Positions 4,416 to 52,910 of a stretch of 64,000 nt of DNA are shown in pieces. Position 1 is the stretch's first letter. Each line of letters begins with the position of its first letter. Both the position numbers and the translations under genes were made by a program. The notes below the pieces were generated by a model that saw nothing but the letters and a program-made list of their open reading frames with translations, did no database searches and was not told where the DNA came from. Source of the stretch: Pedobacter punctiformis (GTDB lineage: Bacteria > Bacteroidota > Bacteroidia > Sphingobacteriales > Sphingobacteriaceae); NCBI RefSeq assembly GCF_027213715.1, contig NZ_JAPWGM010000002.1, forward strand, positions 372,001-436,000. Reading direction: 5' to 3'.

Positions 4416-5186
4416 TCAACCTCTCCCTGCCATCTTGATAAGTTTATGTGCCAGATCTTTACCTAAATAACCATCAATAATACCATGTACAACGTATAAA
4501 ATCGGAGTCATTAAAATGGCGACAATAAATTTGTAAGTATACCCAACCAAACCAATTGCGCCAACCATTTGCCAGCTGTAATGATATTGTGGGTTTAAAT
4601 AGAAGGCAATAAATATAACTACAAAACTATCAATCAGTTGAGATATTAACGTTGAACCTGTAGCACGCAACCACAAGGCTCTTTCGCCTGTAATTTTTTT
4701 GATTTTATGAAATATTAAAACGTCTGCCAGCTGCCCGATCATAAAAGCCGTAATAGAGCCTACAATGATCCACATACCTTGCCCGAAAATACCGGCAAAG
4801 GCATTATTCATATTTAAGTTCTGTCCGTTTACCTGTTGATTTATCCAAAAATCAGAAGGCTGCAAATGCATGGCTGCCCAAACTACAAAAAATGCAAAAG
4901 CAATAAGTATGGAGGTTAGAATGGATAAAAACCGAACCTGTTTCACGCCAAAATATTCATTAATGATATCGGTCATGATAAATATGATGGGCCAGGTTAA
5001 TACCCCTGCTGACATGTGAAAAGAAAGATGCGGAACGCCAAGCAAATTAATATCAAAGGGTTTGATACCCAGCGTACCTTCTACACTGAATAACTTTACC
5101 CCAATAAATTCTGACAATATTGCGTTTGCAACGAAAAAACTCCCAAGAACGAGTAACAGACGGCTTTCTTTTGTTTTAAAAGTCAT
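4416..5186 (-). CDS. Queuosine precursor transporter (YhhQ/QPTR family)
   Basis: Integral membrane protein of 256 residues with about six or seven hydrophobic segments. The segments ANAILSEFIGVKLF near the N-terminus, PIIFIMTDIINEYFG and the GSTLISQLIDSFVVIFIAF stretch are typical of the YhhQ family. This family imports preQ0/preQ1 for tRNA queuosine synthesis. queG, the last step of queuosine synthesis, is at 61.6 kb in the same window, but no other que genes are seen here. The family is clear; the exact substrate (preQ0, preQ1 or queuine) cannot be read. Confidence 0.88.
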   Translation of the reverse strand: MTFKTKESRLLLVLGSFFVANAILSEFIGVKLFSVEGTLGIKPFDINLLGVPHLSFHMSAGVLTWPIIFIMTDIINEYFGVKQVRFLSILTSILIAFAFFVVWAAMHLQPSDFWINQQVNGQNLNMNNAFAGIFGQGMWIIVGSITAFMIGQLADVLIFHKIKKITGERALWLRATGSTLISQLIDSFVVIFIAFYLNPQYHYSWQMVGAIGLVGYTYKFIVAILMTPILYVVHGIIDGYLGKDLAHKLIKMAGRG

Positions 5187-29460: not shown

Positions 29461-29800
29461 GGAAATGGATAGATTGCAGTTTTTGGCTAATGCGGTCCCA
29501 CTCCCGGTTTCTGTCCCGATGGAAAGATCGGTACATTCATTCAGATTTGGGGTTTAGAAACAGAGTTTCTCTTCTCCACGTCATTGCGAGCCATGAAGCA
29601 ATCTCAAAGCGTTTGTTTTAAACTAACTACAGTTGCAAAATTGCTTCGTGTCTCGCAATGACGATAGTTTTAAGTATTTTGTACTACCCCATGCTATTTA
29701 AATGCAATTGGAAGCAGCATCCCCCGATTTTTCTTCGGGGATATAGCGGAAAGCGGGATTAATATTCAAAAGAAAACCAAGCCTGGCTTTACAAAAAGAC
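29461..29800 (+). repeat. Dispersed structured intergenic repeat, copy 1 (with nested palindrome)
   Basis: A ~340-base copy of an element also found at 39118-39376 and 52661-52910. Shared landmarks: 5' TCCCGgTTTC (29502-29511) that pairs with 3' GAAAGCGGGA (29749-29758); a CCGAT/ATCGG hairpin near 29515-29530; GGGTTTAGAAAC; GTTTTAAGTATTTTGTACTA; CCCCCGATTT-TTCGGGGATATAGCG (29721-29747) as a 3' hairpin; and the end AAGCCTGGCTTT. It fills most of the 475-base gap between convergent sigma and response-regulator genes. A second palindrome is inserted at 29579-29663. Confidence 0.8.
29579..29663. repeat. Nested palindromic repeat (GTCATTGCGAG type)
   Basis: Perfect 12-base arms: CGTCATTGCGAG (29579-29590) and CTCGCAATGACG (29652-29663). 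Inner arms GAAGCAAT (29595-29602) and ATTGCTTC (29640-29647) also pair. It lies in the large loop of repeat copy 1. Deleted derivatives occur at 39207-39242 and a half copy at 59506. Confidence 0.85.
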
Positions 29801-37026: not shown

Positions 37027-38952
37027 TTAAACTGTTATTTCTTTTATTAATAAATTATTGAACTCTTCTAAAGTCATTTCGCCTAAATCTCCCACTCCAT
37101 GTTTACGTACCGAAGCTTTACCTTCAGCCATTTCTTTCTCACCAATGATGAGCATATAAGGGATTTTTTTAACCTCCGCATCGCGGATTTTGCGACCGAT
37201 TTTCTCATCACGAAAGTCAATCAGCCCGCGAATATCGGAATTATTTAGTTCATCTAAAACTTTTTTTGCATATTCTTCATACTTTTCTGAAATAGGAAGG
37301 ATTATAAACTGCTCCGGACTTAACCATAATGGGAAGTTTCCGGCACAATGTTCAATCAAAACAGCAACAAATCTTTCTAATGAACCAAAGGGTGCACGGT
37401 GAATCATTACTGGTCTGTGCTTCTGGTTATCGCTACCTGTATATTCCAGTTCGAAACGCTCAGGCAAATTATAATCTACCTGAATGGTACCCAACTGCCA
37501 CTTTCTACCCAATGCATCTTTAACCATAAAATCAAGCTTCGGACCATAAAAAGCAGCTTCTCCATATTCTATTACGGTATTCAATTCTTTTTCAGCAGCA
37601 GCTTCTATAATTGCATCTTCAGCCAGTTTCCAATTTTCATCGGTACCAATATATTTTGTTTTATTTTCAGGATCGCGTAAGGAAACCTGTGCAGTATAAT
37701 CCTCAAACCCTAATGATTTGAAAACATATAAAACAAGATCGATTACTTTTTTAAATTCTTCTTTTACCTGATCCGGGCGACAAAATAAATGCGCATCATC
37801 CTGAGTAAAACCACGTACGCGGGTTAAACCATGCAATTCTCCACTTTGTTCGTAACGGTAAACAGTACCAAACTCTGCAAAACGAACCGGTAAATCTTTG
37901 TAAGAACGTGGTTTAAACTTATACATTTCGCAGTGGTGCGGGCAGTTCATCGGCTTTAACAAAAACTCCTCTCCTTCTTGTGGAGTTCTTATTGGCTGAA
38001 AACTATCTTTACCATATTTTTCGTAGTGACCAGAAGTTACATATAAATTTTTATGTCCGATATGTGGCGTAACCACTTGCTCGTAACCATGTTTTGCCTG
38101 TGCTTTAGCTAAAAATTGAACTAAACGTTCACGCAAAGCAGTTCCTTTTGGCAACCACATTGGTAAACCCATGCCTACCTTTTCAGAAAACATAAACAAT
38201 TCCAGTTCTTTCCCTAATTTACGGTGATCGCGTTTTTTAGCTTCTTCAATCATTAAAAGATATTCGGTAAGCTCGCTTGCCTTAGGAAAAGTTACTCCAT
38301 AAATACGGGTTAGCTGTTTTTTAGTTTCATCACCACGCCAGTAAGCACCAGCAACGTTCATTAACTTAACCGCTTTTACAAAACCCGTATTCGGAATGTG
38401 CGGACCGCGACATAAATCAGTGAAAGAACCTTGAGTATAGAAAGTTATCTTTCCATCTTCAAGTCCTTCAATTAAGTCCAGTTTGTATTCATCACCTTTT
38501 TCGGTGAAATATTTAATTGCATCGGCTTTGCTTACACTTTCGCGAACAAAAGTTTCTTTTTGCTTGGCCAACTCAACCATTTTTGTTTCAATAGCTTTGA
38601 AATCGTCAGAAGAAAATTCCCTGTCGCCAAAATCTACATCGTAGTAAAAACCAGTTTCAATAGCCGGACCAATTCCAAATTTAGTTCCCGGATAAAGTGC
38701 TTCTAAAGCTTCGGCCATTAAGTGGGCTGATGAATGCCAAAAAGTAGATTTTCCGGCAGCATCGTTCCAGGTTAATAATTTTACGGATGAATCAGACTCA
38801 ATTGGTCTGCTCGAATCCCAAACTTCGCCATTAACTTCTGCAGCTAAAACGTTGCGGGCTAATCCTTCAGAAATAGATAATGCAATTTGATGGGCAGATG
38901 TGCCCTTTTCGTACTGACGTACTGAGCCGTCAGGTAAAGTAATGTTAATCAT
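37027..38952 (-). CDS. thrS: Threonyl-tRNA synthetase
   Basis: Class II synthetase of 641 residues. TGS domain (1-60), editing domain with [11 protein letters not shown], catalytic core with FRPHHCE-type zinc ligands (NCPHHCEMY), motif 2 [23 protein letters not shown], motif 3 [18 protein letters not shown], and the C-terminal anticodon-binding domain. Full length. First gene of the thrS-infC-rpmI-rplT operon; its leader contains a small hairpin and a Bacteroidota-type promoter. Confidence 0.97.
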
Positions 38953-38993: not shown

Positions 38994-39016
38994 AAAATCA
39001 CCTACTACGTGATTTT
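38994..39016 (-). promoter_or_regulatory. Hairpin in the thrS leader
   Basis: On the minus strand AAAATCAC and GTGATTTT form an 8-bp stem around a 7-base loop, followed by TTAATTAATT. It lies between the promoter and the thrS ATG, so it could act as a weak attenuator or message-stability element. Confidence 0.45.
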
Positions 39017-39117: not shown

Positions 39118-39376
39118 AACAACAGCCCTCCTCCTGTTCCTATAAGATGAAAACTGAAACATCTCGCTCAGAATACAGGTTTAGAAACGATGTTATCAGT
39201 TAATAACGTCATTGCGGGGTAAGAAGCAATCTGGCAATGACGATGGTTTTAAGTATTTTGTACTATCCGGCGTTATTTAAACCTGATTGAAGCATCATCT
39301 CCCGATTTTTCATCGGGGATACAGCGGAAAGCAGGAACAATTTTCATAAACAGCACAGGATTTGCTTTCCAAAAAC
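39118..39376 (+). repeat. Dispersed structured intergenic repeat, copy 2
   Basis: About 259 bases related to copies 1 and 3. 5' TCCTG (39132-39136) can pair with 3' CAGGA (39332-39336); CAGGTTTA (39176-39183) pairs with TAAACCTG (39278-39285); 3' hairpin CCCGATTTTTCATCGGG. Compared with copy 3, both stems carry a G-to-A change matched by C-to-T on the other side. A shortened nested palindrome lies at 39207-39242, at the same place as in copy 1. It fills most of the 430-base gap between thrS and the acyltransferase gene. Confidence 0.78.
39207..39242. repeat. Deleted nested palindrome in repeat copy 2
   Basis: CGTCATTGC (39207-39215) and GCAATGACG (39234-39242) are perfect arms; between them GGGGTAAGAAGCAATCTG corresponds to the left inner arm of the copy-1 palindrome, with the right inner arm lost. 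Confidence 0.75.
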
Positions 39377-52660: not shown

Positions 52661-52910
52661 CTCTGGAAATGAACAGGCAGCAACATTTACGAAACTACAG
52701 CCCCGCTCCCGTTTCTGTTCCAATGAAAAATCGGAACATTTCACTCCGATCGGGTTTAGAAACAATGTCACTTTACGACATTTTGTCCATTACTTGCACG
52801 ATCCGATTTTATAAACCCGATTGCAGCGGCATCCCCCGATTCTTTTCGGGGATATAGCGCAAAGCGGGAACAAACTTATATAAAAACTACAGCCTATGCT
52901 TTCCAAATCA
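52661..52910 (+). repeat. Dispersed structured intergenic repeat, copy 3 (best preserved)
   Basis: About 250 bases, the most intact copy. Pairings: TCCCGTTT (52707-52714) with AAAGCGGGA (52861-52869), one bulge; GTTCC (52717-52721) with GGAAC (52733-52737); ATCGGGTTTA (52749-52758) with TAAACCCGAT (52812-52821), perfect; and a 3' hairpin CCCCGATTCTTTTCGGGG near 52833-52851. The nested palindrome seen in copies 1 and 2 is absent. A 62-codon open frame inside it (52669-52857) is judged accidental. Confidence 0.82.

Follow-up and report, generated by a model that had tools for sequence, protein, structure and literature searches.

A palindromic repeat in a Bacteroidota genome consists of Flavo-1 hairpins, often in inverted doublets, with compensated base pairs inside each hairpin

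Three described groups of elements bear on the repeat reported here. The first is the Flavo-1 RNA motif (Rfam RF01705; Weinberg et al. 2010, PMC2864571), matches to which are, in Flavobacterium psychrophilum, sense or antisense to transcripts indistinctly and in many cases lie outside transcripts (PMC9723704). The others are the REP, REPIN and BIME palindromes with their RAYT transposases (PMC2817692, PMC3116915) and a CGTC-tagged class of palindromic repeats reported in Bacteroidetes (PMC3733652). In our literature search we found neither a description of Flavo-1 as an inverted doublet nor a link between Flavo-1 and REP elements. What at first appeared to be a new structured element is a member of a known family, Flavo-1, in an inverted-doublet arrangement for which we found no description.

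The window (the whole stretch of 64,000 nt that was analysed, G000:C8:372001-436000) comes from a 4.12-Mb Bacteroidota genome and harbours three copies of the repeat, at 29.5, 39.1 and 52.7 kb. Each is built from two homologous Flavo-1 hairpins arranged head-to-head, the left on the minus strand and the right on the plus strand, as follows:

29490..29559, minus strand: left hairpin of copy 1 (R1 model 45.9 bits, L151:4795-4864)
29579..29663, plus strand: nested palindrome CGTCATTGC...GCAATGACG in the spacer of copy 1
29696..29764, plus strand: right hairpin of copy 1, degenerate, 5' arm TGCA against CGGG (Rfam 25.7 bits, R1 model 61.4 bits)
39118..39376, plus strand: copy 2, doublet of two inverted Flavo-1-type hairpins (left edge approximate)
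39120..39186, minus strand: left hairpin of copy 2, a degenerate Flavo-1, outer stem CCT/AGG (R1 model 31.8 bits, E = 1e-4; no Rfam match up to E = 1)
39207..39242, plus strand: nested palindrome CGTCATTGC...GCAATGACG, likewise in the spacer, of copy 2; its class is the CGTC-tagged REP palindromes
39275..39342, plus strand: right hairpin of copy 2, Rfam Flavo-1, outer stem CCTG/CAGG (46.7 bits)
52695..52761, minus strand: left hairpin of copy 3, Flavo-1, outer stem CCCG/CGGG (Rfam 32 bits, below the gathering cut-off yet significant, E = 4.5e-5, in a local 401-nt search)
52809..52875, plus strand: right hairpin of copy 3, Rfam Flavo-1, outer stem CCCG/CGGG (50.9 bits)

With the Flavo-1 covariance model run on the window, the right halves of copies 2 and 3 exceeded the curated gathering cut-off of 42 bits. 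A profile of left halves matched right halves on the opposite strand and, together with the Rfam match to the left half of copy 3, this identifies the unit as a doublet of homologous hairpins and rules out the left half as unrelated sequence; it is an inverted Flavo-1 relative. A 300-nt query from copy 2 matched 27 places across the genome, and almost every other copy that similarity turned up in the genome also matches Rfam Flavo-1. Genome-wide, the model gave 42 matches, with 31 of these at or above the cut-off.

Each hairpin comprises a 4-bp outer stem (CCCG/CGGG) and an apical stem that varies, together with an internal loop of conserved sequence (GATTGnAGCGG / AGCGGAAAGC). The strands of the internal loop are not complementary, and alignments show that their sequence is kept across copies and genomes. 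Copies 2 and 3 have folding energies 3.2 and 4.1 standard deviations below those of dinucleotide shuffles. Elements occur singly, as doublets and in tandem arrays (periods of 262 and 323 bp), and the doublets are found in both left-right and right-left order with 27 to 146 nt between the hairpins. One hybrid hairpin (L024:1501-1566) joins the outer arm of a left half to the 3' arm of a right half, as if a doublet had been deleted across its centre.

An earlier note on this DNA, comparing the three copies, had described a long stem between inner segments and another between outer segments, with compensated changes in both. All the letters that it quoted occur exactly in copies 1, 2 and 3. The inner segments read CGGGTTTA (52751-52758) against TAAACCCG (52812-52819) in copy 3 and CAGGTTTA (39176-39183) against TAAACCTG (39278-39285) in copy 2. 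Copy 1 has indeed lost this central stem, because its letters read GGGGTTTA (29549-29556) against TAAATGCA (29699-29706). The outer letters are TCCTG (39132-39136) with CAGGA (39332-39336) in copy 2, and TCCCG with CGGGA in copy 3 (52707-52711 and 52865-52869) and copy 1 (29514-29518 and 29754-29758). However, the two stems are not independent, as had been supposed, since the four CCCG/CGGG-type segments in each copy all make up the outer stems of two homologous inverted hairpins. The compensated changes can therefore be read as local pairs or as inner/outer pairs, and copies 2 and 3 alone cannot separate these. Two changes in one pair of copies are in any case little proof; the proof comes from a genome-wide alignment.

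We used two alignments. In a plain MAFFT alignment of 46 hairpins (44 from this genome), 12 of the 14 local pairs were changed on both sides, giving 72 such cells against 19.7 in shuffled data. In a larger set of 141 hairpins from this genome and 12 relatives, which was fitted to a model of the local structure and so leans towards it, the count was 344 against 80.9, far above versions in which the 3' partner was slid. These counts bear out the claim that the paired structure is conserved and that the compensatory changes are genuine. The variable pair singled out by the earlier note appears across the 141 hairpins as CG (56), UA (55), GC (18) and UG (5). Local and long-range pairing were then compared in 21 doublets from the same 13 genomes, some of which share one tandem array and so are not all independent: within hairpins the variable pair was Watson-Crick in 39 of 42 cases (shuffled mean 17.9, p about 2e-4), whereas across the doublet the inner stem was Watson-Crick at this pair in 7 of 21 (shuffled mean 8.6, p = 0.85). 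The outer stem across the doublet likewise gave 7 of 21 (p = 0.92), taken at the outer-stem position of each hairpin, a few bases outside the TCCCG quoted for the left half. The covarying pairs thus lie inside each half, in the Flavo-1 outer stem, and not between the halves, and the Rfam secondary structure is backed by covariation in these copies. Local pairs also vary in place: judged by the flanking proteins, several copies share their intergenic site between this genome and relatives, and there the outer stems show compensated differences (L144/L043, with CCGT/ACGG and CCGC/GCGG; L138/L228; and L143/L230, where orthology rests on one matching flank). The compensation noted previously (G-to-A with C-to-T, and its outer-stem counterpart) is real, but its partners are local; in the larger alignment that had been named as the refuting test, the long stems do vary independently. 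With just two or three copies to compare, homologous hairpins in inverted orientation can give the appearance of long-range compensation.

On balance, we find that the inverted Flavo-1 doublet is probably best explained as a REP/REPIN-like family of DNA palindromes. An old, dispersed intergenic repeat would work as a palindrome of the REP/REPIN type, with a hairpin recognised in the main as extruded or single-stranded DNA; each hairpin would be kept by selection, and spread or turned over by some activity. We propose with less assurance, at somewhat under even chances, that the ‘Flavo-1 RNA’ of Rfam may be no RNA gene: it would be the hairpin building block of a REPIN-like DNA element of Bacteroidota, one that often works as an inverted doublet and is moved or homogenised by some enzyme. 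The element is present or absent at a syntenic site: the gap between the acyltransferase gene and thrS, the two genes that flank copy 2, measures 430 bp here, with the element, and 176 (G003) and 121 bp (G016) without it. The empty site could reflect loss instead of insertion, and no target-site duplication could be defined.

A RAYT/Y1 transposase was considered as a partner and is unsupported by flanks or by distribution. None of 17 Y1/RAYT-like loci has Flavo-1 within about 1.5 kb, and no Y1 gene flanked by the repeat was found. Among the Flavo-1 loci examined, a Y1 gene was near in two genomes only, at about 0.2 kb in G038 and at about 1 kb in G009; a further Y1 gene lies 1-2 kb from a marginal match. 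Within the genus, 14 genomes carry 14-65 Flavo-1 matches and nine carry none; Y1_Tnp is present in all 14 Flavo-1-rich genomes and absent from eight of the nine without Flavo-1. In a thrS tree, eight of the nine Flavo-1-less genomes form one clade with G015 (2 matches), the ninth, G014, not being placed, so the parallel between Flavo-1 and Y1_Tnp is not independent. It is also broken by G033 and G039, which have Flavo-1 and no Y1_Tnp match. Two loci may be recorded separately. The single Flavo-1 match of G038 (L049, G038:C3:219317-219419) is the one about 0.2 kb from a Y1 transposase gene, the only such gene of that genome; this single case is possibly chance. The only Y1 transposase found in the present genome (L028, G000:C1:532993-533334) is immediately preceded by an inverted repeat of another kind, TTTTGGCTAAAGCCAA / TTGGCTTTAGCCAAAA.

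Next to copy 2, and separate from the Flavo-1 repeat, the thrS leader (thrS ATG at 38952) contains a hairpin, ATCAC-GTAGTAG-GTGAT (window 38996-39014, minus strand), that resembles the anticodon arm of tRNA-Thr: a 5-bp stem and a 7-nt loop NUNGUAN, with anticodon AGU, UGU or GGU. Such a mimic precedes thrS in nearly all genomes of the genus examined (the exact pattern is missing in G017 and G024) and, with wholly different stems, in two other families (G030, CCTAT/ATAGG; G029, CCTGC/GCAGG); it was not found before thrS in five other genomes outside the genus. Shuffled thrS leaders showed the pattern in 10 of 5000 cases. The mimic may serve ThrRS autoregulation of the kind of the E. coli thrS operator.

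Judged against gene calls that are mechanical ORFs, the 42 Flavo-1 matches of this genome are intergenic, one overlapping a short ORF. Convergent gene pairs host 22 of 36 of these intergenic regions, compared with 10 of 102 control gaps. In twelve relatives the figure is 11 of 58, so that the bias is not reproduced and a general preference for convergent genes is not upheld. In co-directional regions, the copies of this genome show no orientation bias, while those of the twelve relatives are sense in 28 cases and antisense in 12 (p = 0.017, uncorrected). A fixed 3'-UTR orientation, hinted at by eye at a few loci, did not hold up for this genome. Several species have rRNA operons with a Flavo-1 copy past the 5S rRNA gene and its terminator, roughly 100 to 600 bases from that gene (L136:458-556, L130:5001-5105 and L147:197-295; in relatives L186, L201, L207, L212, L182 and L177). 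At another locus, about 170 bp separate a Flavo-1 copy from a minus-strand TPP riboswitch (L118:4736-4831 and 5001-5079).

The foremost alternative, which we consider rather unlikely, is that Flavo-1 is what Rfam has it to be, a transcribed structured RNA (a 3'-UTR or sRNA element), with the covariation reflecting selection on RNA folding. The strength of the covariation in the 141 hairpins, the Rfam type (sRNA), the sense bias in relatives and the copies past the 5S end of rRNA operons all agree with this. However, across nine robust, well-aligned pairs we counted 1139 Watson-Crick, 23 G.U and 14 A.C cells, whereas eight tRNAs from the same loci have 20 G.U and no A.C among 177 pairs, i.e. 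G.U makes up about 2% of cells in the repeat and 11% of pairs in the tRNAs. Scarce G.U, at a G.U:A.C ratio near one, would fit DNA-level selection or correction better than RNA folding, although it is not proof and the 23:14 ratio may leave room for a mild RNA preference. Also against an RNA stand the occurrence of both orientations and of inverted doublets, the lack of orientation bias in this genome and the F. psychrophilum transcripts, which give no consistent strand for Flavo-1 (PMC9723704).

Less probable again is that the compensated changes arise by templated correction of imperfect palindromes (hairpin strand switching) and not by selection. Such correction should leave Watson-Crick pairs and little G.U or A.C, in line with the counts, and it finds further support in the apical stem, which is alike across many copies here and wholly different at orthologous sites, CCCCGA...TCGGGG here and CTTTTT...AAAAAG elsewhere. 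In rough classes, the former occurs in many right halves of this genome and the latter in most sampled copies of relatives, a biased sample taken from the top of a score-ranked list. The apical stems are alike across copies here and unlike between species (L124/L161, L134/L180, L138/L228, L144/L043, L143/L230), as in concerted evolution; their sequences suggest homogenisation within the genome. Templated correction, however, leaves unexplained the non-complementary internal loop, which stays ‘uncorrected’ and conserved across copies and genomes and which therefore implies selection on at least part of the element.

More doubtful still, and drawn by analogy with the gyrase-binding BIMEs of E. 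coli, is the idea that the doublets, where they lie between convergent genes or follow rRNA operons, would have a topological role or act as roadblocks. The convergent bias of this genome and the copies beyond the 5S gene in several genomes speak for it; the relatives lack that bias, and from one entire clade of the genus Flavo-1 is missing or almost missing. Finally, one large hairpin over the whole doublet is the least probable selected structure. Its long inner stem is energetically feasible, appears in the minimum-energy structures of copies 2 and 3 and could in some copies still pair through G.U. Across the 21 doublets, however, the two sides of this stem do not covary, and several doublets (L197 and L234 among them) have non-complementary arms and self-consistent hairpins; neither the right-left order nor the variable gap favours the large hairpin.

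We return to the DNA palindrome, and read the repeat as behaving more like mobile DNA than like a dedicated RNA gene. Flavo-1 gains an architecture of inverted doublets, tandem arrays, an empty site and species-typical apical stems, through which DNA and RNA readings can be tested against each other. Compared with Rfam Flavo-1, the outer stem, internal loops and flanking UUUA are alike, and the covarying pair of the earlier note is a pair of the Rfam structure; Rfam, however, has a single hairpin; here two often stand head-to-head, the left one being divergent, and CCCCGA...TCGGGG is the apical stem of most copies in this genome. With REP/REPIN/BIME elements the repeat shares intergenic, dispersed and palindromic copies, inverted doublets, alternating arrays and compensated changes within palindromes. 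It differs from them in its longer unit, in numbering tens and not hundreds of copies, in having no repeat-flanked RAYT that we could find and in lacking a GTAG-type head at the palindrome base, which reads TTTAAACC...GGGA in the hairpin alignment. The CGTC-tagged repeats (PMC3733652) have their like in the palindrome nested in the spacers of copies 1 and 2, which is separate from the Flavo-1 hairpin and lies inside the doublet.
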